Translations under genes and position numbers: made by a program
The notes under the pieces: generated by a model
Database searches by the model: none
What the model was told of the DNA's origin: nothing
The model's input: only the letters and a program-made list of their open reading frames with translations
Part shown: one piece after another, positions 1-49,690 of the stretch
How the letters are laid out: each line of letters begins with the position of its first letter
How positions within the stretch are numbered: the first letter of the stretch is position 1
From: an uncultured Fidelibacterota bacterium
GTDB lineage: Bacteria > Fidelibacterota > Marinisomatia > Marinisomatales > Marinisomataceae
NCBI GenBank assembly: GCA_902599655.1
Contig: CACKGC010000006.1
Location: forward strand, 1 to 52,370
DNA length: 52,370 nucleotides
Direction: 5' to 3'

Positions 1-1204
1 CAATCTTATTTTCAGTTGGGTGCCATGAAGTAGTAAAAACTCCATCAAGGTCTATAGGAATCTTTTTATATTTTCCAGATTTAATATCTACAATGATAAT
101 TGAATCTTGCTCTCCACTCTTAGAAGCAAATGATATAGATTTCCCATCTGGTGACCAAGAAATTCCAGGTTGCAACCATTTTAATTCCTCAAAATCTGGA
201 GTAGTATTTCCTCTAATTAGGCGCCTTTTTTGCTTTTCAGAATCAACCTCATATAAAATTAAATCCATATAGCCATCTTGGTCAGAAAAGTAAGCAATAG
301 TATTACCATCTGGCGAAAATGAAGGGCTAACATTATAAAAATTTCTTGTTTCAGTTCTATCAGTTATTTTTGTTGAAAAGTCATCAAAATTTTCCCTATT
401 TACTAGGTCAGGCCAATATTCCCTTTTAACAAAATCATGCCAATCTTCAGTAAGTTTTTCATAATCAACTCCCAAAGCGCTTTCAAAACCGCGCTCATCA
501 TTCTGCGCTCTTTTCATTTGCTGAAAAATCTCACCAACTTTCTCTCTACCATATTTTTGAGTAATGTATTGCCAAACAGACTGTCCTCCTTTATATGCTA
601 AAATAGAATAATTAAGTTCAGGTATTGAAGGCAGTCTGTCTTCTATTGCTAGATCTCTTAGAACCATATCTGAATTAGTATCCCAGTCAACAGATAAAAA
701 TTCAGCTAAACCTTCATTAGCCCATAGCGGAACTTGTACACGGATTCTTCCACTTATCAAACCTTGCGCATTTCCTCCATACACCAGCTCATTTATCGCT
801 GCATGAACGAGCTCATGATGAATTACATGTTCAAACTGTTCATAAGAACCTTCAAAAGGAATAACAATTCTATTTTTATATAATTCCGTTACTCCCCCAA
901 CACCCTCTGACATATATACATTTACAACGTTTGTTTGCTGGAAATCGTTATGGGATGTATAAACAATAATTTTAATTGGCTTATTACTTCTCCATCTTAA
1001 ATGTTTTCCAATTTGCTCGATGGATCTTTCTGCTACTTTAGATGTAAAAATAGCCAAGTCTTTATTATCTCCGTAGTAATAAATATTGGTATTTGGACTT
1101 ACAATGTATTCCCAGTCAAAGGATTCATATTGAACCTTATTTTGCCCAAAACTTTGTGGATATAAAAGATTAGTTAATAATAATATAGTAAGTATAATGC
1201 GCAT
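1..1204 (-). CDS. Secreted gluzincin-type metallopeptidase with TolB-like propeller repeats (C-terminus cut by window edge)
   Basis: Reading the minus strand from the ATG at 1204 gives an open frame of about 401 codons that runs off the left edge, so the C-terminus is missing. The N-terminus is a signal peptide (MRIILTILLL..., likely cleaved after SFG, before Gln21). A zinc-protease motif HELVH lies at residues 130-134, with a downstream ANEGLAEF whose Glu164 is the probable third zinc ligand: the gluzincin pattern seen in peptidase MA-like proteins. From about residue 290 there are PD40/WD40-like repeats of the TolB type (SPSFSPDGNTIAYFSDQDG, then SWSPDGKSISF). This suggests a periplasmic or outer-membrane-associated peptidase fused to a propeller. 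Its substrate cannot be told from sequence. It is divergent from the LpxH-like gene. Confidence 0.85.
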   Translation of the reverse strand, partial: MRIILTILLLTNLLYPQSFGQNKVQYESFDWEYIVSPNTNIYYYGDNKDLAIFTSKVAERSIEQIGKHLRWRSNKPIKIIVYTSHNDFQQTNVVNVYMSEGVGGVTELYKNRIVIPFEGSYEQFEHVIHHELVHAAINELVYGGNAQGLISGRIRVQVPLWANEGLAEFLSVDWDTNSDMVLRDLAIEDRLPSIPELNYSILAYKGGQSVWQYITQKYGREKVGEIFQQMKRAQNDERGFESALGVDYEKLTEDWHDFVKREYWPDLVNRENFDDFSTKITDRTETRNFYNVSPSFSPDGNTIAYFSDQDGYMDLILYEVDSEKQKRRLIRGNTTPDFEELKWLQPGISWSPDGKSISFASKSGEQDSIIIVDIKSGKYKKIPIDLDGVFTTSWHPTENKI

Positions 1205-3006: not shown

Positions 3007-4292
3007 TTTTCTATCCTTTGATTTACATTTTTAATATCTAATAGCTTTCTATACTTAGCAACCGTTCTTCTTGCTATTAGAAAATCTTTTTCATTTAATT
3101 TCTCTACAATATCTGAATCAGATAATGGAGATTTCTTATCCTCGGCATTAATTATTTCAAGCATCACTTTTTTAAGCTCATTAGTAGATGCAGTTTTACC
3201 AGATTTTTTAGTTAATGCATTTGAAAATAAACTTTTTAAACTAATTAATCCAATTGGTGTATCAATATATTTATTTTTGACCACTCTACTAATGCTTGAA
3301 ATATCTTTATCAATTTTATTTGCAATATCTTCTAATTTTAACGGATTTAAAAATTCACTTTTATTGCTTAAAAAATTTCCCTGCACTAATAAAATCTGCT
3401 CAATAACATCCTTGAGTGTATTGGATCTATAATTCAATGTATCTAAAATATTCTGTGCATCACTAATATGGTTTTTTAAGAAAGTTTTTTCTTCTTTTGA
3501 AGAATTTGAATTCATTGCTGCATCAAGATAGTCTTGCGAAATTTGATACTTATTTAATAGTCTATCATTTATAAGAATCAACCACTTATCTTCTTTTTCC
3601 TTTACTATGGCGTCAGGTAAAACATTTTCGATGCCTAAATCATTATCAAGAATGGGAGAAAAATTTTGATCTGAAATGAATGAAAAAGCTTCATCAATTT
3701 CTTTGTCCGTACAATTTATATGTTGTTTTATTTTATCTTTATTCTGATTTAGAAAATCATCAAAATAATTTTCAACTATCTTGCTTGATAGTGCATTAGA
3801 ATCTCCAATTTGAAAAGTTAAGTACTCTTTCAAATCTTTGCTTCCTACACCCACAGGATTAAGCTCCATTACTTCTTTTCTGACTTGTTCTATTTCTTCA
3901 ACATCAACATTATGATTATCTGCTATTAACTCTAACTCAATATCTAAAAATCCATTCTTATCTAAATTAAATACTATTTCTTTTCCAATTAATTTTGATT
4001 TCTCATCAAGATTTGATGTATCAATTTGAATTATTAAATCATCTGTGATGTCCCTGCTTTCTGGAATATTTGCTAAGAATAATTCATAGCTACTTTGATC
4101 TTGAAATGAATCTACCTGATTATTTGATCTTGATTCTTCAATGCTTTTTTCTTCAATTACAGGGTTTACTTGTATTTCATTTTCCAAATCTTTTTCAAGC
4201 TCATCAATAGATAACTCTAACAGTCTAGATTTTATAATTTGCTGAGGAACTATAGATTGTTTTTGTCTAAGCTTGGTAGAAAGTTTGTTCAT
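3003..4292 (-). CDS. rpoN: RNA polymerase sigma-54 factor
   Basis: The product directs RNA polymerase to -24/-12 promoters and needs an AAA+ activator to melt DNA. The Gln/Leu-rich region I is visible at the start (LRQKQSIVPQQIIKSRLLEL). The C-terminus has the RpoN box as ARRTVAKYR with a preceding helix-turn-helix. At 429 residues it is somewhat shorter than the roughly 470-480 of proteobacterial RpoN; the acidic linker after region I is compact. It follows lptB with a 4-nt ATGA overlap, the common lptB-rpoN neighbourhood of Gram-negative genomes. No sigma-54 activator or hpf-like gene is next to it here. Confidence 0.93.
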   Translation of the reverse strand: MNKLSTKLRQKQSIVPQQIIKSRLLELSIDELEKDLENEIQVNPVIEEKSIEESRSNNQVDSFQDQSSYELFLANIPESRDITDDLIIQIDTSNLDEKSKLIGKEIVFNLDKNGFLDIELELIADNHNVDVEEIEQVRKEVMELNPVGVGSKDLKEYLTFQIGDSNALSSKIVENYFDDFLNQNKDKIKQHINCTDKEIDEAFSFISDQNFSPILDNDLGIENVLPDAIVKEKEDKWLILINDRLLNKYQISQDYLDAAMNSNSSKEEKTFLKNHISDAQNILDTLNYRSNTLKDVIEQILLVQGNFLSNKSEFLNPLKLEDIANKIDKDISSISRVVKNKYIDTPIGLISLKSLFSNALTKKSGKTASTNELKKVMLEIINAEDKKSPLSDSDIVEKLNEKDFLIARRTVAKYRKLLDIKNVNQRIEK

Positions 4293-5020
4293 TGATCCAA
4301 TTTAAAATTTTTACCCAAGTATATTCTTCTGACTTCCTCATCATTTGCTAAGGTTTGGGCATCTCCTGATTTTAATATCTTTCCTCCGTAAAGAAGGTAT
4401 GACCTATCTGTTATTGAAAGTGTCTCTCTAACGTTATGATCAGTAATTAGTACTCCAATATTTTGCTGTTTTAGAGAAATAATCATCTGCTGAATATCTT
4501 CAACCGCAATCGGATCAACACCTGCAAATGGTTCATCTAACAATACAAAGTCAGGTTTTAAAGCTAGAGTACGACATATTTCAACTCTTCTTCTTTCTCC
4601 TCCCGATAATCCAGCTCCAATATTATTTCTTATGTGAGAAATATTAAATTCGTTTAGTAGTTTATCAATTAGTTGATTTTGTTCTTCTTTGTTCGGAATA
4701 ATTGTTTCAAGCACAATTTTCAAATTATCTTCGACACTTAATTTCCCAAAAATTGATGGTTCTTGAGCTAAATATCCAATCCCCATTCTAGCTCTTTTGT
4801 ACATTGGAGACTTTGTTATATCTTCATCTCCAAAAATTATTTTACCTGAAGAAGGCCTTATCATACCAGTAATCATATAAAATGTTGTTGTCTTTCCTGC
4901 CCCGTTCGGTCCTAAAAGACCTACGACTTCACCTTTATTTAAATTTAGATCAATGTCATTAACGGCATAAAAATCTCCATATTTTTTAACAAGATTTTCT
5001 GCTCTTAATACTTTAGTCAT
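4289..5020 (-). CDS. lptB: LPS export ABC transporter ATP-binding protein LptB
   Basis: LptB is the cytoplasmic ATPase that powers extraction of lipopolysaccharide from the inner membrane together with LptF/LptG. The 243-residue protein shows Walker A GPNGAGKTT (37-45), the ABC signature LSGGERRR (138-145), Walker B ending in LLDEP with the LptB-typical FAGVDPIAV, and the switch histidine in ITDHNVRET. The FAGVDP signature and position directly after lptC separate it from LivF-type ATPases. It overlaps lptC by 8 nt and rpoN by 4 nt. The permease genes lptF/lptG and the bridge gene lptA are not in this window. Confidence 0.93.
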   Translation of the reverse strand: MTKVLRAENLVKKYGDFYAVNDIDLNLNKGEVVGLLGPNGAGKTTTFYMITGMIRPSSGKIIFGDEDITKSPMYKRARMGIGYLAQEPSIFGKLSVEDNLKIVLETIIPNKEEQNQLIDKLLNEFNISHIRNNIGAGLSGGERRRVEICRTLALKPDFVLLDEPFAGVDPIAVEDIQQMIISLKQQNIGVLITDHNVRETLSITDRSYLLYGGKILKSGDAQTLANDEEVRRIYLGKNFKLDQ

Positions 5021-5543
5021 TATTAATTCTTCCTCTTGGTTGCAAAATATTCCAATCAGTTAAGTCTATATTAGATTTAAATCCAGTTCCATAAAGTGTA
5101 TCCGTATCTGAAGTAACAAATTTAAGATTTGCATCAGTATAAATTTTATCAGAATTATTATCCCATGTTAAAGAGTCTGTCATAAGTATTTTCCCGTCAT
5201 TAGAAATGACCATAACAGTTCCGTAAGCTTTGATTCTATTTTCTTTTTCATTCACCATCGCAGATTGTGATTTAATTAAAGATTTATGCTGAAAATCTTC
5301 ATCAAATAAATCAACATTAACGTTATCATATAGCTCTAATTGTAATGATTGATTATTCTTTTTTAAGATTTCCGATTTGATTTTTGCAGTAATATTACCT
5401 TTTTTTGTTAATGTAATTTCGACATTTGTTGATAATTGATCATGTACGTCTTTTTCAACATTATTGATAACTTCATTTTTTGAACATGAAACAAAAAAAA
5501 GCATTAAAAAAATTGTTAATTTTTTGTTTAAATCTAATATCAT
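5013..5543 (-). CDS. lptC: LPS export periplasmic protein LptC (lipoprotein form)
   Basis: The 176-residue protein has a short hydrophobic N-terminus ending in a lipobox-like FVSC (Cys about residue 20), so it looks like a lipoprotein rather than the single-pass LptC of Escherichia coli. The rest is beta-strand-rich LptC/OstA-like sequence, with repeats of the type 'NRIKAYGTVMVISNDGK', 'LMTDSLTWDNNSDKIYTD' and 'TLYGTGFKSN'. LptC passes LPS from LptBFG toward LptA. The call rests on these repeats plus placement between kdsC (4-nt overlap) and lptB (8-nt overlap); sequence identity in this family is generally low. Confidence 0.85.
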   Translation of the reverse strand: MILDLNKKLTIFLMLFFVSCSKNEVINNVEKDVHDQLSTNVEITLTKKGNITAKIKSEILKKNNQSLQLELYDNVNVDLFDEDFQHKSLIKSQSAMVNEKENRIKAYGTVMVISNDGKILMTDSLTWDNNSDKIYTDANLKFVTSDTDTLYGTGFKSNIDLTDWNILQPRGRINND

Positions 5544-6082
5544 CTTAGCTCACTAAGTAATTTATCTAATTGTTCAGTAAAATCACCTCTAGATTCAATA
5601 AGTAGGTCGATTACCTCTCTTACTGCGCCTTTACCCCCTTCAAGTAAAGTGGTATAGTGCGAATAATTAGATATATACTTTGGAGCATTTGGTACTGTAA
5701 CAGCAAATCCAACTTTTTCTAAAATAGGTATATCAATAATGTCATCTCCAATGAAACAAACTTCATTATCTAATACCCCATATTTCTTTTTTAATTCATC
5801 GTATGCATCAATTTTACGAATTACTCCATTATATACGTCATCAATTTGAAGCTCTTCTGCTCTTTGAGTAGTTGTAAGAGATTCTCTTCCAGTAATCCAT
5901 GCAGTTTTAATATTAAGATTCAATAATCTAAGCATTACAAAACCAACACCATCAAGAGCATTAAAAGATCTCAACTCATCTCCAGATGTACTTTTAATAA
6001 ATGATCCATCTGTGAGTACGCCATCAATATCACAAATCAATAATTTTATTTTAGAAAGTGAATCTTGTAATTTTCTATCCAT
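5540..6082 (-). CDS. kdsC: 3-deoxy-D-manno-octulosonate 8-phosphate phosphatase
   Basis: KdsC hydrolyses KDO-8-phosphate to KDO and phosphate. The 180-residue HAD-superfamily C0-type protein has the nucleophile motif CDIDGVLTDG (Asp18, Asp20), a TGRES motif II region and the late acidic motif FIGDDIIDIP. Length and the DGVLTDG signature are characteristic of the small tetrameric KdsC enzymes. It overlaps kdsA by 8 nt (ATGGATAG) and lptC by 4 nt, so substrate synthesis and dephosphorylation are encoded back to back. Confidence 0.95.
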   Translation of the reverse strand: MDRKLQDSLSKIKLLICDIDGVLTDGSFIKSTSGDELRSFNALDGVGFVMLRLLNLNIKTAWITGRESLTTTQRAEELQIDDVYNGVIRKIDAYDELKKKYGVLDNEVCFIGDDIIDIPILEKVGFAVTVPNAPKYISNYSHYTTLLEGGKGAVREVIDLLIESRGDFTEQLDKLLSELR

Positions 6083-16832: not shown

Positions 16833-17702
16833 ATGCTAAGAAAACTAATTAAAATTTCCTTACCAATAAAAATTGTTAAATACATTATTGTTGTATTACT
16901 CTTTTCAGAATTAAATGCTCAGTTTAAAGAAGCAAATATAACTTTTGATGATCGACTTTTGAGAGATGATGAAAAATCCTCACTATTTAACTTAAAAAAT
17001 GCTATTCAAAGATTTTATGTAGACACTGTTTGGAATGACGAATATAGAGATTTAGAACTCAAGTTAAATATTCAAGTTATTTTTGAAGGTAATGCAAATA
17101 CTGGTAGCTCAGAATCTTTTCTAATACAGTCTTTATTTAGTAATAATATGGATTTACATTTTTTTGATAAAGGTTCTCAATTTTCGCTTAGTCAAAATTC
17201 TTCGCTTTACTATGATAGTGTATATTATGACCCCTTATCAAGTCTTCTTGGTTTTTATGGAAATATAATACTTGGCGCAGAATTAGATACATGGAGCTCT
17301 CTTGGTGGATCGCAGCATTATGAAAAAGCTAGAAGTATAGCTGTACGTGCAAGTTCATCAAATTTTTCCAGAGGATGGGAGCAAAGATTACTCTTAATTA
17401 ATCTATTAACAGATAATGTAGGTTTGAGAAAACTTCGTTTTTCAACATACTTATCATATGAACTTTTTGAAAATGGTAACATTGATGAATGTATATTAGC
17501 ATTAGATGAATTGATTAATAATCTTGATGAGATATTTAATAATTATTCACAAGAAAACTATACCAACATGTTTATGAAATATCATGGACCTAAAATTGGA
17601 GAAATAATGGAAAAATTAGGTCAAAAAGAGATGTTATTAGAACTTCAAGACTTAGACTCTCAAAGATCAAATATATATAAAGAATTTTATTCAAATATTT
17701 GA
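16833..17702 (+). CDS. porD: DUF4835 / PorD-like protein, type IX secretion associated
   Basis: The 289-residue protein has an N-terminal signal sequence ending ELNA before Gln. It matches my memory of the DUF4835 (PorD) pattern: an early 'LKNAIQRFYVDTVWND' segment, a central 'YDPLSSLLGFYGNIILGAEL' followed by 'WSSLGGSQHYEKARSIA', a 'GWEQRLLLINLL' stretch, and a charged C-terminus. In Bacteroidota this family is linked to type IX secretion and gliding, with no enzymatic role known. No other type IX gene is nearby. It is flanked by cca (divergent) and a glycosyltransferase (stop codons overlapping by 16 nt). The family call comes from pattern memory, not a search. Confidence 0.7.
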   Translation: MLRKLIKISLPIKIVKYIIVVLLFSELNAQFKEANITFDDRLLRDDEKSSLFNLKNAIQRFYVDTVWNDEYRDLELKLNIQVIFEGNANTGSSESFLIQSLFSNNMDLHFFDKGSQFSLSQNSSLYYDSVYYDPLSSLLGFYGNIILGAELDTWSSLGGSQHYEKARSIAVRASSSNFSRGWEQRLLLINLLTDNVGLRKLRFSTYLSYELFENGNIDECILALDELINNLDEIFNNYSQENYTNMFMKYHGPKIGEIMEKLGQKEMLLELQDLDSQRSNIYKEFYSNI

Positions 17703-18700
17703 TTGAAATATTTTTTACGCTTAAAAAAATAATCAATAGCTACACTACCATTATAAATTAAATCAAGATTCTTATGTCTTAAATCATTGTTCTTTCTCAC
17801 ATTTACAATAACTCTCAAATTATAGATTAACCAAAAATGAGAATAAAAAATCGCTAAAAATCTTTTAAAATCTAGAGTAAAGATAGAATAGATAGCTGCC
17901 ATTTGATCTAAAATGAATCTCTTTATAATTAAAATTCCTTTTTCAAATGATGGAGAATTTTTAATAAATAAAATCCATGAGTTTCTATGATTTAAGTAAT
18001 GTGATTTAAATGAATTTTGTTTTATAGTTTGCTTTCCGTAATGAAAAACAACTGAAGTTGGTACATTCCATATCCCCCAACCTAGCGCTTGAAGTCTCCA
18101 GCATAAATCTATCTCTTCCATGTAAGCAAAGAAAATGTTGTCAAAAAAATTTAATTCATGTAATAATTCTTTTCTTATTATAAAAGCTGCACCAGAAGCC
18201 CAAAAAATTTTCTTAGCACTGTCATGTTGATTTAAGTCTTTTTCAAGCGTATTGAATAATCTTCCTCTAACGAAAGGGAAGCAATATTTATCAATATAGC
18301 CACCAGCTCCACCAGCATAATCAAATGTATCTTTATCTATTGCATTTAGAATTTTAGGCTGAGCTGCACCCGCATGAGGATTTTTATCTAAAAAATTGAT
18401 TAACTCTTCTATCCAGTTTTTTGTGTGCAATGTATCGTTATTGAGAAAAATAACATATTCACCCATGGCTTTTTTTGCTCCAAAGTTGCAACCTCCACTA
18501 TATCCTAGATTTTTTTTTGATTTTAATAAATGAATGGATGGAAATTGAATTTTAGCTTCATCCGCTGATCCGTCATTTGAATGATTATCTACAACAATAA
18601 CCTCAAAACTATCAATAGAAATATTATCAAATAATGATTCTAAGCAATCAAAAAGTAGCTTTTTACCATTATGGTGAGGGATGATAATTGATAATTTCAT
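17687..18700 (-). CDS. Family 2 glycosyltransferase (rhamnosyltransferase-like)
   Basis: The 337-residue GT-A protein opens with LSIIIPHHNGKKLLFDCLESL, followed by VIVVDNHSNDGSAD, NLGYSGGCNFGAKKA and the metal-binding LNNDT (DxD equivalent). WASGAAFIIRKELL and EEIDLCWRLQALGW follow, the acceptor and catalytic-base region of WbbL-type enzymes. The C-terminal third is basic and probably membrane-associated. Donor and acceptor cannot be deduced. It starts within the stop of the DUF2723 gene (TAATG), which suggests co-expression and perhaps action on the same glycan. Confidence 0.88.
   Translation of the reverse strand: MKLSIIIPHHNGKKLLFDCLESLFDNISIDSFEVIVVDNHSNDGSADEAKIQFPSIHLLKSKKNLGYSGGCNFGAKKAMGEYVIFLNNDTLHTKNWIEELINFLDKNPHAGAAQPKILNAIDKDTFDYAGGAGGYIDKYCFPFVRGRLFNTLEKDLNQHDSAKKIFWASGAAFIIRKELLHELNFFDNIFFAYMEEIDLCWRLQALGWGIWNVPTSVVFHYGKQTIKQNSFKSHYLNHRNSWILFIKNSPSFEKGILIIKRFILDQMAAIYSIFTLDFKRFLAIFYSHFWLIYNLRVIVNVRKNNDLRHKNLDLIYNGSVAIDYFFKRKKYFNQIFE
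17693..17716. terminator. Possible AT-only terminator hairpin between convergent genes
   Basis: AAATATTT at 17693-17700, a five-base loop and a second AAATATTT at 17706-17713 can form an 8-bp stem, with T residues following on the plus strand. It sits at the overlapping ends of the porD-like and glycosyltransferase genes. The stem has no G-C pair, so it would be weak, and chance is a real alternative in DNA this AT-rich. Confidence 0.25.
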
Positions 18701-21576
18701 TAGGAAGACTCTAGTTGCAATATTTCCTCGAGTAATTCTTTTGCATTATCATCAGCAGGATTCTTTTTAATCCAATCATTTAATAATATTTTGGCTTCAT
18801 CATACATTTCAAGATTTTTGTAACTTAGAAAAAGTAGGTAAATAATTTCTGGAAGTGACTGTTGCCAATCTTGCCATTCTTTTTCTGATATTTTTGTTGC
18901 TGTGAACCCTCGTCTTAAAATTGACTGTTCAATAAGCTTATAATTCTGGTATATAGTTTCAAAAATTAATTTTGACTCATCATAATCTTCTAAAAGTTGA
19001 ATGAAAGTCTTCCCATACAATATATAATCTTCAAGCAATAAATCTTTTCTTTCAACAAGCTCTTTCATATGATATTTCATTTTAGCTTGATTACCTACAC
19101 CGCTATAAACTTGTGCAATTTGGTATTGAAGTTGTTTTGAAGGTATAGGAATAATACTGCTTGGCATAATTTCTTCCATTTTCAGAAGAGCCGCTTCAGC
19201 TTTTTGAAAATCTTTATTTAAATAATGAGATATAGAAAGTCTTACAAATCCAGTACGATAATTTTGTACTAATCGCCCTAATTGAGGATCAACATATACT
19301 TTCTCATTTGCAAGATTTCTAAAGATATATCCTCTCTGATATTCTTTTGAAATATCTCTATCAAGTAAATTGTATTTATTTGAATCGTAATCAGTAAACC
19401 AAGAATTATCTCCAATATACGATAATAAATTATCCGACATTTTATTTTGATTAATTATCTGATTTGAATTATTTACTAATCTGTATGCTAAACCTTCCAT
19501 TTGTAAATAGTTATCAAGATTTAGCATGCTTGTTGGGGAAACAGTCACGCCAAAATAAATAGGTCGATTCCAATTATTATCATTAATTATTCTTAAAACC
19601 ATAAGATCTTGTATTCTTAATGCAACGCCTAAATAAGTAGGATTTAATTCCCACTCAATTTTACCTATCTCATTGTTACTATCTTTTGGAGCATTTATAG
19701 AGATTTTCTTTGATTCCCATCTTTTAAAATCTAGACGTTGAATTTCATTATCGCTCATTTTAATAAATGGATTATCCTTGTATCGTTCTCTTAATTGCTC
19801 AACATACCAGGTGGTATTTAAAAGACTCAAATTGGCAACTACTACATCAGTTCTTATTTGTTCAACTTCTTGTAAATACCATAAAGGAAATGTGTCATTA
19901 TCTCCGTTTGTAAAAAGAATTGAGTTTGGTTCACATGTTTGAAGCATATTATATGCCATATCCCAAGCAATGTAGTTTCCTGTTCTGTCGTGTTCATGAT
20001 AATTGGCAATTAACATTCTAGTTGGCATAAATAGAATGAATAACCCTATCATAAAGTAAGATGATTTTAACTTAATTGACTTTTCTAGCAAAGAATCTGT
20101 AATAAAATTGATGAATGAATAGATACCTAAACCAATCCAAATGGAAAAAGTCATAAAACTTGCTACATAAGCATAATCACGCTCTCTTGGTTGTGGAGCA
20201 TCTTGATTGAGATAAAAAATAATTGCAATACCGGTCATTAAAAATAATATCAATAAAGAAAATGCATCTTGTTTATTCTTTCTGAAGTGATACCCTATTC
20301 CAATTAAGCCCATTATAAGTGCAATTGGTAATCCGAATTGTCTCCAATCCACTCCATCTTCATCAGAGGATGCTCCAACACTTGCAACAAATGGGTCTCC
20401 ACTGTCACCTTTACCTGCAAATTGCCATAAGAAATATCTTAAATACATTTTTTTAATTTGGTAATTCCATAAAAAGCTTGCTTGAGATGGAATATCATGA
20501 AACATGTAATCCAATTCCTGATCAAATGAAAATTGTGAGTTGTCATCAGCTGGAGATCCCACAATAGAAACTTTTGAAGGAAGATTATCAAATTTTCTTG
20601 GCAAAATAGTCATTTGACCATATTGGTCTCGGTTTAGATAAGAAATAGCTTCAGAAATAGTTTCAGGATTATTTTCATCTATATTGGGATTTTGGCCAGA
20701 TCGAATAAAAATTGCAAAATATGTGGAATAGCCAATTACAATTAGTAAAACAGATGATAAGAAAATTGATAAAAAAGTTTTGTTTGATTTAATTGAGTAA
20801 ATCGTGGCTATAACCCACAAAATAATTAAAAAACTTAGTCCAACTAATCCTAAAGATGCAGTTAATTGCGGTAGGCCTTTTATAATAATACTCTGAATTC
20901 CAAAAAAAATAACTAAAGAAAATATAAAGGTAAGAATCAAATTTTTGGTGCTCAATCTTCCGATTGAAAAATATATTATCAGTCCAATAAATGGGATAGT
21001 TAACAGATTAAGTAAATGTAAACCTGTTGCTAATCCAATGATATAGCTAATAAATATTAAGTATATGACATGATTTGAATCATGAATTTTTTGAGACCAG
21101 CGCATTATTAGAAATACAACTAGAGCTGTCATAAATCCGCTAAAAGCATACACTTCAGTTTCAACAGCATTAAACCAATGACTATGAGTGAAGGCAAAAG
21201 TCAAAGAAGCAGTCAAAGAGGACCACATCTTAAAAAACTTATTATCACTTGGATCTATTCTATCAATGAATTGATTACAAATGAGAAATAGGAGACTAAT
21301 GGTTAATGCACTTATTATAGGTGAAAAAATATTCACTCTGAATGCAATATCAATACTGATGGGTAATAGACTAAAAAATTTACCAACCAATAAAAATAAT
21401 GGACTCCCTGGAGGATGAGGTACTCCTAAAATATGAGAAGTTGCTATAAACTCTCCAGTATCCCAAAAAGATACTGTAGGAGCCATTGTTGAAAAATATA
21501 CTGCAAATGTTATGAGAAAAATAACTCCAGCAATTAGATTTTCTAATTTTTTGCTATAAGTAGTGAAAAAACTCAA
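18700..21576 (-). CDS. DUF2723 membrane glycosyltransferase-like protein (GT117 / TMEM260-related)
   Basis: This 958-residue integral membrane protein begins with a GT-C-like region of about a dozen hydrophobic segments. Its early luminal loop contains PTVSFWDTGEFIATSHILGV and PHPPGSPLFLLVGKF, the signature of DUF2723, a family related to protein O-mannosyltransferases. After the membrane part (to about residue 520), a soluble region has LFTNGDNDTFPLWYLQ and then helical TPR-like repeats to the C-terminus. The family is common in Bacteroidota and relatives; its donor and acceptor are not well established. The start is a TTG two bases after the DUF1844 gene, the only start upstream of the first membrane helix. 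It is coupled to the family 2 glycosyltransferase. Confidence 0.85.
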   Translation of the reverse strand: MSFFTTYSKKLENLIAGVIFLITFAVYFSTMAPTVSFWDTGEFIATSHILGVPHPPGSPLFLLVGKFFSLLPISIDIAFRVNIFSPIISALTISLLFLICNQFIDRIDPSDNKFFKMWSSLTASLTFAFTHSHWFNAVETEVYAFSGFMTALVVFLIMRWSQKIHDSNHVIYLIFISYIIGLATGLHLLNLLTIPFIGLIIYFSIGRLSTKNLILTFIFSLVIFFGIQSIIIKGLPQLTASLGLVGLSFLIILWVIATIYSIKSNKTFLSIFLSSVLLIVIGYSTYFAIFIRSGQNPNIDENNPETISEAISYLNRDQYGQMTILPRKFDNLPSKVSIVGSPADDNSQFSFDQELDYMFHDIPSQASFLWNYQIKKMYLRYFLWQFAGKGDSGDPFVASVGASSDEDGVDWRQFGLPIALIMGLIGIGYHFRKNKQDAFSLLILFLMTGIAIIFYLNQDAPQPRERDYAYVASFMTFSIWIGLGIYSFINFITDSLLEKSIKLKSSYFMIGLFILFMPTRMLIANYHEHDRTGNYIAWDMAYNMLQTCEPNSILFTNGDNDTFPLWYLQEVEQIRTDVVVANLSLLNTTWYVEQLRERYKDNPFIKMSDNEIQRLDFKRWESKKISINAPKDSNNEIGKIEWELNPTYLGVALRIQDLMVLRIINDNNWNRPIYFGVTVSPTSMLNLDNYLQMEGLAYRLVNNSNQIINQNKMSDNLLSYIGDNSWFTDYDSNKYNLLDRDISKEYQRGYIFRNLANEKVYVDPQLGRLVQNYRTGFVRLSISHYLNKDFQKAEAALLKMEEIMPSSIIPIPSKQLQYQIAQVYSGVGNQAKMKYHMKELVERKDLLLEDYILYGKTFIQLLEDYDESKLIFETIYQNYKLIEQSILRRGFTATKISEKEWQDWQQSLPEIIYLLFLSYKNLEMYDEAKILLNDWIKKNPADDNAKELLEEILQLESS

Positions 21577-44417: not shown

Positions 44418-45239
44418 CTATAGAGAATTTTTTAAATCAAAGTTACTAAGAAAATCATAATTTGATAACAAACCTGAATTTAGAGGCCTAAAAGCTTTTA
44501 TATTTTTTTTTGAAAAGAATTCCTCTGATGAAATTGGCTTAATCAAGTCAGAATCATAATTCGAATTCGTAGCAATTATTTTAGCAAAATCATATCTAGA
44601 TATAACTTTATTAGTTCCAGCATGAAAAATACCATTACATTTATTTGAAATTAATATATCAATTATTTTTGAACAATCTTCAACGCTTATAGGATTATTA
44701 AATTGATCATCAATAACAGATATATTTTTTCTATTTTTAAGATTATTTATAACCCAAGAAACAAAACTCGCATCAGAATTTTTACTGAATAATATATTTG
44801 TTCTTAAAATAATATTTTTCTTGAAAAGTTTATTCACTAAAATTTCTGAATTAAGCTTTGATCTACCATAAATATTTATAGGATCAGGATTATCATTTTC
44901 AAAATAAGGACCGGACTTACCATTAAAAACATAATCTGTTGAAAGCTGAATGAATAATCCATTAAATGAGTATTTAAAGTTATTTATTGATTTAAAATTA
45001 ACTTCATAACAATCATCTTCATTGATTTCGCATAGATCTACATCTGTCATTGCTGCGCAATTTAAAATGATATCAGGCTTTACTTCATTAATAACATTCT
45101 CAACATTCTTCGTGTTAGTTATATCTAAATCTTGTTTATTATAACAATAAATTTTATAGTCATCAGAAAATAATGATGAAAATGAAGACGCTAGCTGACC
45201 TTTACCTCCTGTAATTAAAATTCTTTTATACTGCTTCAT
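44418..45239 (-). CDS. rfbD: dTDP-4-dehydrorhamnose reductase-like protein (RmlD family)
   Basis: The 273-residue Rossmann protein has ILITGGKGQLASSF at the start, DLDITNTKNVENVINEVKPDIILNCAAMTDVDLCE, LSTDYVFNGKSGPY and the catalytic YGRSK, all RmlD hallmarks. The typical reaction makes dTDP-L-rhamnose. Its partners rfbA, rfbB and rfbC are not in the window, so they lie outside or the substrate differs. It is the most downstream gene of the polysaccharide cluster, convergent with ahcY across an 11-nt gap, and overlaps the sugar transferase gene by ATGA. Confidence 0.88.
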   Translation of the reverse strand: MKQYKRILITGGKGQLASSFSSLFSDDYKIYCYNKQDLDITNTKNVENVINEVKPDIILNCAAMTDVDLCEINEDDCYEVNFKSINNFKYSFNGLFIQLSTDYVFNGKSGPYFENDNPDPINIYGRSKLNSEILVNKLFKKNIILRTNILFSKNSDASFVSWVINNLKNRKNISVIDDQFNNPISVEDCSKIIDILISNKCNGIFHAGTNKVISRYDFAKIIATNSNYDSDLIKPISSEEFFSKKNIKAFRPLNSGLLSNYDFLSNFDLKNSL

Positions 45240-46105
45240 CTTAAAAACTTAAATATTGTTTTGAGTATTATCAAAAAATCATAAATCAAATTCTTATTAT
45301 CTAAATACAAAAAATCATGTTCAAGATTATGATGTATTTCTCGTTCACGCGCTTTACTTATTTGCCACAAGCCTGATATACCAGGATTTACATTTAATCT
45401 AAAAGTTTCAAGATAATTATAATTTTTTACAATGAATGGCATTTCTGGTCTAGGACCTATAAATGACATTGTTCCATTAAGAATATTGAAAAGTTGAGGC
45501 AATTCATCTATATTTGATTTCCTTAGAAATAGACCAATTCTTGTATAGTAATCGTTTGTCTTATCTGAGCTTTTCATATACTTTGGTGTTGACTTTTTTA
45601 ATGTTCTAAATTTGTATATTTGAAATTCATTTGAGCCAATTCCTATCCTTTTCTGTATAAAGAAGATTGGTAGTCCATCTGTCAAATAAATTATTATTGA
45701 AATAGAAAGTAAAAATGGGGAAAATATGATTAATGCTATAAGAGCAATTATTTTTTCTAAAGAAATTTGTAAAAAAGAATTTTTTTTAATTAATTTATTT
45801 GTCGGGTGCGGTATTCCCCATAAAATATTATTCTTAAAATTAAGGTTAATTGATTCTTCGTTAAAAAAATATGAAATTTTGATTTTTTCATCAAAAGAAT
45901 TGAAAAAATTATACTCTTTTTTTGAAAAAGAATTATTCATATAAATGATTCTACTGAATTTATCGAAATTAACTTTCACATCATTTATTGAAATATTTTT
46001 TTTCAATATGTAAAAAGAAACATTGTTTACTTTAATGTAATCTGAGTACTCTAATTTAAACTTATGGACTAAATTATCTAATCCTAGTACTAATATTTTG
46101 CTCAT
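45236..46105 (-). CDS. Polyprenyl-phosphate sugar transferase (bacterial sugar transferase family, WbaP/WcaJ-like)
   Basis: The C-terminal half of this 289-residue protein is the initiating sugar-1-phosphate transferase domain: one membrane segment (ALIALIIFSPFLLSISIIIY), QKRIGIGSNEFQIYKFRTL, the RIGLFLRKSNIDELPQLFNI segment, and the catalytic GTMSFIGPRPEMP, then NVNPGISGLWQIS. The N-terminal 105 residues are not obviously related to known CoA-binding-like domains. The enzyme should begin assembly of the repeat unit on undecaprenyl phosphate. The sugar is unknown. Confidence 0.9.
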   Translation of the reverse strand: MSKILVLGLDNLVHKFKLEYSDYIKVNNVSFYILKKNISINDVKVNFDKFSRIIYMNNSFSKKEYNFFNSFDEKIKISYFFNEESINLNFKNNILWGIPHPTNKLIKKNSFLQISLEKIIALIALIIFSPFLLSISIIIYLTDGLPIFFIQKRIGIGSNEFQIYKFRTLKKSTPKYMKSSDKTNDYYTRIGLFLRKSNIDELPQLFNILNGTMSFIGPRPEMPFIVKNYNYLETFRLNVNPGISGLWQISKAREREIHHNLEHDFLYLDNKNLIYDFLIILKTIFKFLR

Positions 46106-47040
46106 TTTATTTTTTTAAAATATGAAATGGTTTTGTTTAAACCATTTTCGATATTGACTTTAGGATGATAATTTAATTTTTTTGTTGCTAGAGTTATATC
46201 TGGTTTTCTCTTTAAAGGATCATTTTGAGGTAAATCTTCATAGATAATTTCAGATGATGAATTAGTGAGTTTTATTACTTTTTTTGCTAATTCGTTCATA
46301 TCGAACTCTTCCGGATTTCCTAAATTAATTGGCCCCAAAAACTTATCTTTTAAAATTAAATACGCGTTTATGCCTTCAATCAAATCATCTACGAAGCAAA
46401 ATGATCTGGTCTGCTTTCCGTCGCCATAAATTGTTATAGGTTTATTTGTGATTGCTTGATTTATGAAATTTGATACTACTCTGCCATCATCGGAATTCAT
46501 ATTTGGTCCATATGTATTAAAAATTCGAATTATTTTACAATTCAAATTAAATTTTTTAGAGTATTCATAAAGAAGCATTTCTGCTACACGTTTTCCTTCA
46601 TCATAACAGCTCCTTGGTCCAACAGTATTAACATTGCCGTAGTAACTTTCTGGCTGAGGATGTACATGTGGATCTCCATATACCTCACTTGTTGAAGCAT
46701 GTAGTAAAGTTGAATTATTTTTTAAACAAAAATCTAAAATGTTATATATGCCTTTTATTGATGCAGATGCTGTATCTAAAGGATTTTTTAAATAATATTT
46801 TGGAGACGCTGGGCACGCAAAATTTAGTACCCAATCAAAATTATTTTCCATTTTCAGTTTATTTGAAATATCATGTCTGATAAAGTTGAAGTTTTTATTT
46901 TTTTCAAATTCTTTAAGATTAGTTTTATTTCCTGAAGATAGGTTATCTAAACAGGTTACATGAAATTTTTTATTTAGGTAATAATTACATAAATGAGATC
47001 CTATAAAACCTGCTCCGCCTGTTATTAAAATTTTTTTCAT
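46102..47040 (-). CDS. uxs: UDP-glucuronate decarboxylase (UDP-xylose synthase)
   Basis: This 312-residue short-chain dehydrogenase converts UDP-glucuronate to UDP-xylose. It has the Rossmann start ILITGGAGFIGSHL and the Uxs-specific blocks NFACPASPKYYLKNP, STSEVYGDPHVHPQPESYY, GNVNTVGPRSCYDEGKRVAE (catalytic Tyr/Lys in YDEGK) and IFNTYGPNM. The ACPASP and PRSCYDEGKR signatures distinguish it from GalE-type epimerases. Its substrate would come from the UDP-glucose dehydrogenase encoded two genes upstream in the transcript. ATGA overlaps join it to both neighbours. Confidence 0.93.
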   Translation of the reverse strand: MKKILITGGAGFIGSHLCNYYLNKKFHVTCLDNLSSGNKTNLKEFEKNKNFNFIRHDISNKLKMENNFDWVLNFACPASPKYYLKNPLDTASASIKGIYNILDFCLKNNSTLLHASTSEVYGDPHVHPQPESYYGNVNTVGPRSCYDEGKRVAEMLLYEYSKKFNLNCKIIRIFNTYGPNMNSDDGRVVSNFINQAITNKPITIYGDGKQTRSFCFVDDLIEGINAYLILKDKFLGPINLGNPEEFDMNELAKKVIKLTNSSSEIIYEDLPQNDPLKRKPDITLATKKLNYHPKVNIENGLNKTISYFKKIK

Positions 47041-48167
47041 TTTGTTACTTCTTTAAATACATTCGAATATAAAGTAATAATTCTTTTCCAATTATATCTT
47101 TCTTTAATACGAATTTCTCCTTTATCAATAAACTTGTTCAATATGCTTGGAGATTCTTCAATCTCGTTCACCAATTTTGAAATAGAAGATGAATTTTTTT
47201 CAAAAAATAGTCCATATTTATCATTATCTAATACTTCTCTAGTAAATACAGTGTCTAATGCTAAAATTTTCGCATTATTCGATAATGCTTCAAGCAAGGT
47301 TGGGTTTGTTCCACCATATTCATGTCCATGAAAATATGCATAAGAATGTTTTACTAATTGATCTAAGAGTTTTCTATCTCTAATGTATCCCACAAATTTT
47401 AATCTTTTATCATCAATGGACTTGATTTTATCAGCATAATGATCTTTATAAGGTACATCTCCAACAATTACTAATTTTCTAGTTGAACTAGATTTCAAAA
47501 ATCCGTTCACAATGATGTCAGCATTATTATCAGGAATTAAACGTCCAACAATGATGTAATATGAATTTGGCTCTAAATCGAAATCACTTATCAAATTTGA
47601 ATTGCTGCTTTCATTGATATTGGCACCATACTCAATCACAGTTGACTCACAATAAAATTTCTTTTCATATATATCAGCCATTGCATTAGCATCTGTAATA
47701 ATTCTATTATAAAAAATTGTACTGAACCATGAAGAAAGATAGAAAAAAGTTTTTCCAAAGAAATTCCATTTTGGTCTTTGCCACTCCATTCCGTCAACAT
47801 TTATTACAGATGGAATAAAAAATAACCTAGAAACTAATCCAAAAATCCCATTAGCAGAATTGACTGCGAAAATTAAATCGTACCTTTTAAAACAACAATG
47901 AAAGATAGCTTTAAATGAGTGAACTAATTGAGCAAAATTTTTTCTTTTAGAGGTTGTAAGATATACAAGATTAATGCCATTTACAATTTTTGGCTTATCT
48001 TCAAAAAAATGATCATGGCAATAAACTGTAACTCTAAAACCTTCTTTGACTAAGCCTTCAGCTAATTCCTTAACAAGAGTTTCAAACCCACTATAAACAA
48101 CAGGATAACCTCTACTTCCTATGATAGCAATATGCTTCTTCTTAGTTTTCTGAAATTGCTCTTCCAC
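47037..48167 (-). CDS. Family 4 glycosyltransferase with N-terminal DUF1972 domain
   Basis: The protein of about 376 residues starts with AIIGSRGYPVVYSGFETLV, the DUF1972 opening of bacterial rhamnosyl-type GT4 enzymes. The C-terminal half is a GT-B domain with YYIIVGRLIPDNNADIIVNG, HGHEYGGTNPTLLEALSN (the E-x7-E region) and KERYNWKRI. I prefer the GTG at 48167, which has GGGAG at a good distance, over a TTG at 48206 that would overlap the upstream gene by 65 nt. Its donor and acceptor sugars are unknown. Confidence 0.85.
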   Translation of the reverse strand: MEEQFQKTKKKHIAIIGSRGYPVVYSGFETLVKELAEGLVKEGFRVTVYCHDHFFEDKPKIVNGINLVYLTTSKRKNFAQLVHSFKAIFHCCFKRYDLIFAVNSANGIFGLVSRLFFIPSVINVDGMEWQRPKWNFFGKTFFYLSSWFSTIFYNRIITDANAMADIYEKKFYCESTVIEYGANINESSNSNLISDFDLEPNSYYIIVGRLIPDNNADIIVNGFLKSSSTRKLVIVGDVPYKDHYADKIKSIDDKRLKFVGYIRDRKLLDQLVKHSYAYFHGHEYGGTNPTLLEALSNNAKILALDTVFTREVLDNDKYGLFFEKNSSSISKLVNEIEESPSILNKFIDKGEIRIKERYNWKRIITLYSNVFKEVTK

Positions 48168-48987
48168 GAAGGAGCTCCCAATCTTTCTCGGGTCTATCAA
48201 GTTCAATATTTCTTCTTAAACATGCGTTTATAATATATGATTTTAAATTTAAATCATTCATTTTTGCATTTAAAGCTGAAACATCCTTTGGAAAACAACT
48301 GCCACCATACCCAAAACTTCCATCATGTCCTGGAACCATCCAATGAGATTTACCTAATCTTTGATCTTCTGAAGCAATATTGATCATTGAATTATAATCA
48401 ATTCCTAATGCCTCGCATAAGCTATACATCTCATTTGCAAATGAAACCTTCAAAGCAAGAAAATTATTGATTGTATACTTAATTGTTTCAGCTGAAACCG
48501 AATCAGTTAAAAAATATTTTGAATCTGGAAAAGCAACCTCATACATTTCTTTGACTTCTTGAGAAGCATCTTTTTCTCCCCCAATAACAATAAACTCTTG
48601 ATTTTTAAAATCATCTATGAAGTTTTTTTCAGTCAAGAATTCAGGATTAAATACAATTTTAAGATTTTTATATGTTTCCCCTAGAATATTTGTTGTTTGT
48701 GGTATTGACGTTGATTTGAGTATAATAATTTTATCGTTTTTTGATACTTCGTTTATTGATGACATTACATCTTTCACAATAGACAAATCGCATTCACCTT
48801 TTTTATTCATTGGTGTCGGAACAGCAACAAAAATAATATCTGATGCATTGACTAAATCAATAATATTATTGCAAGTCGATTCCTTAGCATTATCAAAAGT
48901 CTCAATACTATGGTAATCTTTTAATCCTTCAAATACTGCTGAACCAACATATCCCAAGCCAATTATTCCCAATTTTTTTTTATTCAC
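48142..48987 (-). CDS. UDP-glucose/GDP-mannose dehydrogenase family protein lacking the C-terminal domain
   Basis: The 281-residue protein has the NAD-binding N-terminus [14 protein letters not shown] (8-21), [13 protein letters not shown], a KSTSIPQTT segment, FNPEFLTE (113-120), the central-domain helix [20 protein letters not shown] (Lys170) and the catalytic Cys231 in YGGSCFPKD. It then ends, about 150 residues short of the family's usual 430-450, with the UDP-binding C-terminal domain absent. The frame closes with a normal stop, not an evident frameshift. The expected product is UDP-glucuronate for Uxs. The start is GTG with AGGAG seven bases upstream, overlapping the acetyltransferase gene by 8 nt. 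Confidence 0.85.
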
Positions 48988-49690
48988 TATAATCTCCTAG
49001 ATTTTTAATTATTTTTGCTGGTAGCCCACCAATTACCACTCCTTTCGGAAATGATTTTGTCACAACACTCCCTGCAGCAATTACTGTATTATCACCAATT
49101 TTAACACCGTCCAAAATAGTACTATTTGCACCAATCCAACAATTGTTTCCTATCTCAACTCCCTTTCTAGACTCTCCTTGGTTTTTTATGATTACGTCAT
49201 TACTTAAAAAATTATGATTTTCTGAAAATATTCTTATATCCGGTCCCATTATAACATCTCTACCAATTTTAATTCCTCCTTGGCCACTTAAAAAATTTCT
49301 AGCTCCTATAGCAGTATTTGAACCAATATTAATACCCTCACCTATATTTTTTATAACTCCAGTAGATTGTAGTACAGCGTCCCTACCAACTGTACAATTT
49401 TCTCCAAAACGAATCCCTTTTATAGATAAACCATTAATGTACACATTATCATTTAATATGAGATTTTTCCCTGATGATACAGAACCTTTAAAATCAATTT
49501 TTACTTTTCTTCCTATGAAAGTTAGTCCTTTGAAATTGCATGGTGTTAATTTGTAAATCACTCCTTTTAATAATTGAAAAAATCTTAGATATAAGATATT
49601 TAAAATAGCACTGAATGCAATTTTCTTTTCAAACTTATAACTTGAATCACCCTTAATTTTTTGAATAATGACTTCTAATATTTTTATCAT
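48980..49690 (-). CDS. Hexapeptide-repeat acyltransferase (putative polysaccharide O-acetyltransferase)
   Basis: The 236-residue protein has a basic N-terminus of about 60 residues, then left-handed beta-helix repeats ([37 protein letters not shown]) and the CoA-binding segment [20 protein letters not shown], ending in [13 protein letters not shown]. The family transfers acetyl groups from acetyl-CoA to sugars; its acceptor is unknown. It overlaps the following glycosyltransferase gene by ATGA. A serine or sugar acetyltransferase role is less likely in this cluster. Confidence 0.87.

Follow-up and report, generated by a model that had tools for sequence, protein, structure and literature searches.

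The window analyzed here is a stretch of 52,370 nucleotides from an uncultured Fidelibacterota bacterium, and one of its genes raises a simple question. Synthesis of UDP-glucuronate is textbook chemistry ascribed to a three-domain UDP-glucose dehydrogenase. In this window, the dehydrogenase frame stops after two domains, and a predicted consumer of UDP-glucuronate is encoded close by. Is the gene broken, is the missing domain supplied by another protein, or is the short protein an enzyme in its own right? We consider it likely that the gene encodes a complete, functional and self-sufficient compact two-domain UDP-glucose dehydrogenase, probably a homodimer and probably acquired horizontally.

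The Dehydrogenase Gene and Its Neighbors

The dehydrogenase frame runs on the minus strand from a GTG start at 48987, with AGGAG standing ahead of it, to a TAA stop at 48144-48142. A Pfam search of the 281-aa product found the NAD-binding domain (PF03721; 6.6e-24, 85 bits, cut-off 27) and the central domain (PF00984; 8.5e-25, 87.1 bits, cut-off 25.4). The C-terminal UDP-binding domain (PF03720) was absent. This confirms the short dehydrogenase proposed in the first-pass annotation, which had been made from the sequence alone. The match to TIGR03026, a general model of the nucleotide-sugar dehydrogenase family and not an equivalog, exceeded the cut-off (197.9 against 189.8 bits) and covered positions 72-293 of the model’s 413. 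None of the equivalog models passed its cut-off. Those for UDP-glucose dehydrogenase gave 134.9 bits of the 700 needed (TuaD), 131.7 of 670 (AglM) and 89.8 of 757 (PRK15057), and TuaD and AglM scored higher than the models for UDP-ManNAc (68.6 bits) and TviB (21.6 bits). The protein is the single PF00984 protein of its own assembly, which is 81.5% complete.

The gene belongs to a tight minus-strand run with overlapping ends. Distances were taken between open frames, and the upstream overlap may be merely apparent. The genes of the run are as follows:

48980-49690, minus strand: hexapeptide acyltransferase, upstream, with an 8-base overlap with the dehydrogenase start
48142-48987, minus strand: compact, two-domain nucleotide-sugar dehydrogenase, 281 aa, most likely a UDP-glucose 6-dehydrogenase (Pfam/TIGRFAM, AlphaFold)
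47037-48206, minus strand: family 4 glycosyltransferase (Cps2T-like), overlapping the dehydrogenase 3' end
46102-47040, minus strand: UDP-xylose synthase / UDP-glucuronate decarboxylase (Uxs), the predicted UDP-glucuronate consumer, by match to solved UXS
45236-46105, minus strand: initial sugar-phosphate transferase (Bac_transf), overlapping Uxs
44418-45239, minus strand: RmlD-like NDP-4-keto-sugar reductase, last gene of the overlapping run

Uxs lies two genes downstream of the dehydrogenase. Its matches to the solved UXS chains 4gll, 2b69, 4m55 and 4lk3 range from 6.2e-91 to 4.2e-90 (UDP-glucuronate decarboxylase 1 structures 4gll, 6.2e-91, and 2b69, 6.6e-91), and the next chain stands at 1.7e-36. 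By these matches, 46102-47040 reads as a clear UDP-glucuronate decarboxylase, and the suggested pairing of the dehydrogenase with a UDP-xylose synthase that needs UDP-glucuronate holds up. We found no convincing galU in the 81.5%-complete assembly, where the best match reached 60.5 bits against a cut-off of 326.8. The weak galU-type matches lay at C3:134-787 (60.5 bits) and C4:138-635 (33.7 bits) of G000; of 14 control genomes, just 5 give a match above the cut-off of this model. Elsewhere in the window, a gene for a 958-aa TMEM260-like protein O-mannosyltransferase family protein (18700-21576) adjoins a family 2 glycosyltransferase (17687-18700), forming a second glycosylation spot.

The Missing Domain

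The glycosyltransferase downstream could start in frame at TTG 48206 or GTG 48167. Its residues 23-384 of 389 match the whole length (1-384) of the closest family model, at 201 bits, below the cut-off of 500. Since this gene is intact and overlaps the dehydrogenase 3' end, there is no room for a C-terminal domain there. A C-domain model derived from 14 full-length relatives was run against all six frames of the 52-kb window and found no remnant at E ≤ 100. This makes a frameshift or assembly error very unlikely and answers the concern, raised with the first-pass annotation, that an error might hide a longer frame.

The same annotation had suggested that the short enzyme might be completed by another protein, an idea that the search for one did not support. 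PF03720 was absent from the genome’s own assembly (706 kb, 81.5% complete), and just one of 24 genus genomes (G019) had the domain, within a separate 395-aa dehydrogenase. As a control, the search found PF03720 in 14 of 14 genomes, 13 of them over the cut-off. Near the 160 loci collected below, a scan of frames of at least 40 aa gave six C-domain matches (L088, L047, L071, L048, L049 and L057). Each match lies in a frame of its own, 421-445 aa long, as expected of a complete dehydrogenase and not of a free domain. Replacement of the domain by something in trans is not supported. We conclude that the gene is complete, neither truncated nor frameshifted. G019 encodes its 395-aa enzyme (C1:135382-136362) alongside its own short form and offers a usable internal comparison.

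Distribution of the Short Form

A search with an alignment of the short form found a relative in 14 of 24 congeneric Marinimicrobia genomes. Twelve are complete frames of 280-302 aa, one runs into a contig end (G016, 202 aa) and one is divergent (G010, 293 aa). We then drew 120 genomes from the phylum, and 100 matched the short-form profile at 1e-20 or better. In five of these, the match spans the whole short model with 386-393 bits, and all five are from the window’s genus, which contributed nine of the genomes drawn. The scores of the other 95 do not exceed 203.5 bits, and most of their frames measure about 434-485 aa; in seven cases the best match is in a frame of 211-399 aa. Of 17 genomes from other families of the order, 14 had a match, with best-match frames of 439-454 aa. 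As sampled, the short form is confined within its phylum to this small-genome genus.

Scans with the genus alignment (A1), using patterns drawn from the short-form alignment (FNPEFLTE or FNPEFLT, and KVSF[LAM]NE[MI]), gave at least 494 confirmed relatives in genome contigs and at least 576 in viral contigs, and the best 80 of each were kept. All 160 kept loci encode the short form, one of them (L112) split by an intein; this describes the nearest relatives, not UDP-glucose dehydrogenases at large. Every frame of the viral set (best 80 of at least 576) stops no more than 16 residues from where the profile match ends. In the genome set (best 80 of at least 494), 79 of 80 end within 33 residues of that point, and L079 and L114 are cut by the contig at the other end. 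Short forms are thus abundant, and the worry that relatives might lack them can be set aside. Judged by its sequence, the dehydrogenase is a member of a conserved, widespread compact subfamily.

The bacterial hosts in the records include Marinimicrobia, Bacteroidetes, SAR86, other Gammaproteobacteria, Pelagibacter, Halobacteriovorax and Actinomycetes; Daviesbacteria, Amesbacteria and WWE3 represent the CPR, and Woese-, Pace- and Nanoarchaeota the archaea. Metagenome bins may mislabel some of these. Several loci have features of their own. In the Microgenomates gene L112:5932-7902, a LAGLIDADG-type intein (Intein_splicing PF14890, 39.8 bits; LAGLIDADG_3 PF14528, 35.1 bits) stands directly before the catalytic Cys and is followed by the usual tail. 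Viral contig L139 holds two different short dehydrogenases (3295-4149 and 4980-5846; 285 and 289 aa stop to stop), both DW-tailed and with one other frame between them. Four loci from actinobacterial bins (L075, L077, L081 and L084) encode longer proteins of 323-346 aa, or 378 aa stop to stop in L084, with several loop insertions; the C-domain is likewise missing and the tail reads DWxxQVGRA. Campylobacter phage vB_CjeM_WX1 (L034:2992-3765) has a very divergent 257-aa dehydrogenase in a region that also carries queE and radical SAM genes, so it may serve another pathway.

In an unrooted tree from a quick search, a starred branch (97) separates all 22 full-length rows from the remaining 86, every one of them short. 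The label “short” needs two changes on this tree, with two phage rows and G010 labelled apart. The window row lies within 48 short rows that mix viral contigs and several phyla (support 90, not starred). L034, L088, L047 and L015 have long branches, and two long-branch joins may be false. We read the mix of viral contigs and phyla as horizontal transfer, in an unspecified direction, with viruses taking part. The window’s gene probably arrived by horizontal transfer, within a gene pool to which marine viruses also belong.

Residues Kept and Lost

Conservation was counted over 83 diverse short rows (alignment A2), made from the 160 loci minus L112 (intein) and L079 and L114 (contig ends), with 75 of the 157 dropped at ≥70% identity. 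The conservation of P115, E116, E120 and N185 is partly forced by the scan patterns; that of the tail, K170, N174, R210, C231 and D235 is independent of them. Two catalytic codons and the tail lie as follows:

48478-48480, minus strand: codon of K170, the equivalent by motif of Lys204 in S. pyogenes UGDH; 83/83 in A2
48295-48297, minus strand: codon of C231, the equivalent by motif of the catalytic Cys260; 83/83 in A2
48145-48195, minus strand: conserved C-terminal tail R265..D269-W270..G275-R276, in place of the missing domain (A2 conservation)

Passages of PMC4794789 describe 18 residues invariant across 229 nucleotide-sugar dehydrogenases. Seventeen have equivalents in the window protein, matched by motif and not by alignment to the S. 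pyogenes sequence: G10, G12, G15, T58, S92, T93, P115, E116, E167, K170, N174, N185, G228, G229, C231, D235 and N260. Each is kept in 80-83 of the 83 short homologs. The catalytic Cys260, Lys204, Asn208 and Asp264 correspond to C231, K170, N174 and D235, with the Cys, Lys and Asn present in all 83 rows and the Asp in 82. The first-pass annotation had listed the NAD motif (GxGxxG), K170 and C231, and all three are there together with N174 and D235. Equivalents of Glu145 (83/83), Asp29 (83/83) and Arg244 (82/83) are also kept; the same passages describe Arg244 as extending across to the sugar of the other subunit.

The 18th invariant residue, Lys320, falls in the missing domain. It holds the diphosphate of UDP-glucose, and Arg327 makes a salt bridge to the NAD pyrophosphate (passages of PMC4794789). 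Both residues of motif 3 are lost with the C-terminal domain, which counts against our preferred explanation. According to passages of PMC4794789 and PMC3184952, many UDP contacts lie in the N-terminal and central domains, with an arginine added from the other subunit. The published N-terminal, central and cross-subunit contacts that could be mapped are kept in the window dehydrogenase. The earlier statement that full-length homologs use the C-terminal domain for UDP binding was therefore too strong.

The protein had also been described as about 150 residues short. The UDP-binding domain is indeed gone, but about 30 of those residues are lost inside the N-terminal domain. The spacing from GxGxxG to the TP motif is 38-46 residues in all but one of 82 short rows (the exception has 61), compared with 66-76 in 19 of the 22 full-length rows (those measurable by script). 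The segment lost is the region of published motif 10 (NSGxxxK..PIxEPG), which by eye is absent from the printed short rows.

Tyr10 (S. pyogenes numbering) has a role in thioester hydrolysis according to passages of PMC4794789. It is a Tyr in 19 of 22 full-length rows, and the 83 short rows have Phe (54), Tyr (14), Ile (12), Val (2) or Trp (1). The window protein has a tyrosine, Y13. The 12 rows with Ile at this position are all CPR or DPANN except L092 (Raymondbacteria); 11 of them carry the tail DWxxIP instead of DWxxLxGR, and L105 ends in DWLK.

The Tail and the Predicted Fold

The tail is conserved well beyond the 43% mean column identity of the short-form alignment: R265 is found in 83 of 83 rows, D269 and W270 in 82 each, G275 in 71 and R276 in 61. 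AlphaFold gave a model with a mean pLDDT of 96.4 and a pTM of 0.91, with a pLDDT of 90 for the block 271-280. The 50 best Foldseek matches listed for this model were all UDP-glucose dehydrogenases. The structural neighbors include 3vtf (Z 28.1, rmsd 1.8 over 263 aligned residues), 3gg2 (27.6), 2y0e (27.6) and 1dlj (26.9). In a fold search of viral models, the best four were annotated as UDP-glucose or UDP-glucose/GDP-mannose dehydrogenases, three of 256-308 aa and one of 788 aa.

Residue 272 of the model, the last aligned, pairs with residue 329 of 1dlj. In passages of PMC4794789 this is Ser329, two residues past Arg327 in motif 3. The same end point pairs with 348 in 2q3e_D, 333 in 3vtf, 340 in 2y0e and 321 in 7kws. 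The end points are not uniform (3gg2_A reads 78..414, and 3pjg pairs 277 with 315); the aligner reports where each alignment begins and ends, and a published residue is linked to the S. pyogenes number alone. The helix turn at residues 269-272 of the model appears to occupy the position at which motif 3 of the lost domain would enter its helix; we treat this as a lead and not as proof.

SDR Genes Beside the Short Form

Uxs homologs (44.8-58.7% identity) lie within 6 kb of the short form in 8 of 80 genome loci (best 80 of at least 494). Their sources are Marinimicrobia, Bacteroidetes, Gammaproteobacteria, a “Pelagibacteraceae” bin, CPR and Pacearchaeota (DPANN). Three are on the same strand as the short form (L042, L047 and L109). 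The other five are on the opposite strand (L046, L049, L057, L080 and L093), which makes those five neighbors and not operon partners.

Extended SDRs in general adjoin short forms more often than they adjoin other frames. In the non-redundant set, an immediate neighbor of the short form on its own strand is such an SDR at 12 of 32 viral loci, against 17 of 322 other frames, and at 9 of 49 genome loci, against 35 of 493. Outside that set, the viral counts are 22/48 against 31/494 and the genome counts 3/29 against 11/274. The control frames (≥100 aa) were picked greedily and are not called genes; spurious frames would lower the control rate, and the inclusion of both genes flanking each SDR increases it. 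Two of the 80 genome loci, L075 and L077, are omitted from these counts, their dehydrogenase frame not having been picked. A profile of 17 viral SDRs came nearest to 4zrm, a UDP-glucose 4-epimerase, at 296.7 bits, with UXS at about 203, and the viral partners are on this evidence more likely epimerases than UXS.

Within the genus, SDR matches at 1e-25 occurred in 10 genomes, all among the 14 that have the dehydrogenase, and in none of the 10 that do not. Matches at the level of UXS (55% or more) were limited to the window genome and G005, several of the genus genomes being incomplete. A true Uxs therefore accompanies the short form in 2 of 14 genomes; eight have a different SDR, and four have none at 1e-25. 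With Uxs in so few, UDP-glucuronate may be destined for other products, or the substrate may not be the same throughout.

Proposed Function and Alternatives

From residue conservation, the absence of PF03720, the predicted fold, gene order and the identity of the partner, we infer a substrate, an activity, a dimer and a role for the tail. The most likely reaction is UDP-glucose + 2 NAD -> UDP-glucuronate, and the product would feed Uxs to yield UDP-xylose for a surface glycan. By analogy with solved enzymes, K170, N174 and D235 would act in the first oxidation, and C231 would form the thiohemiacetal/thioester in the second. The subunits would pair through the long central helix (residues 163-194), placing R210 of one subunit in contact with the sugar in the other, and a 12-residue loop would wrap the UDP moiety. 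The tail R..DWxxLxGR would probably fold back to cover the site of motif 3, closing off the diphosphate/NAD side. A dimer here would agree with the loss of the C-terminal loops, given that the enzyme of S. pyogenes is an obligate dimer. The first-pass annotation had held that the short enzyme probably works; with the catalytic set kept and a genuine UDP-glucuronate decarboxylase alongside, its sequence suggests that it very probably does.

Decay of the gene, or a sequencing or assembly error that removed the C-terminal domain, scarcely comes into question. The protein is shorter than the 439-454-aa enzymes of the order’s other families, but distant bacterial, archaeal and viral relatives have a similar length and the same tail, the window has no C-domain remnant in any frame, and the overlapping downstream gene is intact. 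Nearly as improbable is that many members stop short of efficient thioester hydrolysis. The family tyrosine is present in far fewer short rows (14/83) than full-length rows (19/22), but Phe may be tolerated, and Y13 makes the argument inapplicable to the window protein. The missing UDP-binding function could instead come from a partner protein such as the neighboring SDR (Uxs or epimerase), which binds the same UDP-sugar and could pass it on within a complex. The conserved tail could be a docking segment for such a partner, and a same-strand extended SDR adjoins the short dehydrogenase at 43 loci (11 genome, 32 viral). We still find this unlikely: the adjacent SDRs differ in kind (UXS, GalE-like, TviC-like), most genome loci have none adjacent, and a free PF03720 protein was not found in the genus.

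A little more probable, though still not favored, is a dehydrogenase of this family with another main substrate (e.g., UDP-GlcNAc, UDP-Gal or another NDP-hexose), with Uxs fed in some other way. TIGR03026 is general and every equivalog fell below its cut-off; the SDR adjacent in L059 is TviC-like (281 bits against a cut-off of 760), and those in viruses are nearer to UDP-glucose 4-epimerase than to UXS. Against this, the UDP-glucose equivalogs TuaD and AglM outscore those for UDP-ManNAc and TviB, the Uxs alongside needs UDP-glucuronate, and the gene encodes the sole PF00984 protein of the 81.5%-complete assembly. We therefore keep to a self-sufficient UDP-glucose dehydrogenase as the likely explanation. 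A bolder version, which we put forward tentatively and at somewhat less than an even chance, is that the short proteins form a separate class of minimal four-electron sugar dehydrogenase. In these, a tail of about 15 residues (R..DWxxLxGR) would do the job of a UDP-binding domain of about 120, and the class would be common to marine phages, streamlined bacteria, CPR and DPANN and moved by viruses.

If the compact form does work alone, it would be a minimal catalyst for a four-electron oxidation and would make it possible to test directly whether the UDP-binding domain serves binding, closure or control of the hexamer. It could also serve as a marker for viral transfer of surface-sugar genes between ocean phyla, and calling such short genes truncated would be wrong for a widespread group.

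Comparison with Known Enzymes

The three-domain UDP-glucose 6-dehydrogenases (EC 1.1.1.22; 3vtf, 3gg2, 2y0e, 1dlj and 2q3e) have the same N-terminal and central fold as the window protein (Z 26.9-28.1, rmsd 1.8-2.0) and share 17 of the 18 family-invariant residues with it. The window’s gene order, which includes a UDP-glucuronate consumer, is a further likeness. Unlike them, the short form has no PF03720, about 30 fewer N-domain residues, a longer VPGxDG loop before GGxC and the conserved R..DWxxLxGR tail. Marine metagenome UDP-glucose dehydrogenases that are 39-64% identical to the E. coli enzyme have been assayed, in passages of PMC9927302 that do not give lengths. In the open-licence PMC literature, we found no description of a short class, its tail or its activity.

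Two-domain enzymes of the 3-hydroxyisobutyrate dehydrogenase type also use NAD and have a similar length (288-300 residues) and a related fold (Z 21.4-21.9). They differ in sequence (12-20% identity), and the nucleotide-sugar dehydrogenase residues Cys, Lys, Asn and Asp are all in place in the window protein.

Short proteins labelled UDP-glucose dehydrogenase already exist in phage records, and their presence in databases is not new. Those of phage C48C1 (319 aa) and Campylobacter phage WX1 (257 aa) carry this annotation and likewise end after the central domain, and BFVD entries of 256-308 aa are similar in length to the compact form. The C48C1 dehydrogenase also adjoins an epimerase. It is 34% identical to the window protein; the short phage proteins fall on a separate, long-branched side of the tree, and by eye the two that were printed lack the DWxxLxGR tail.
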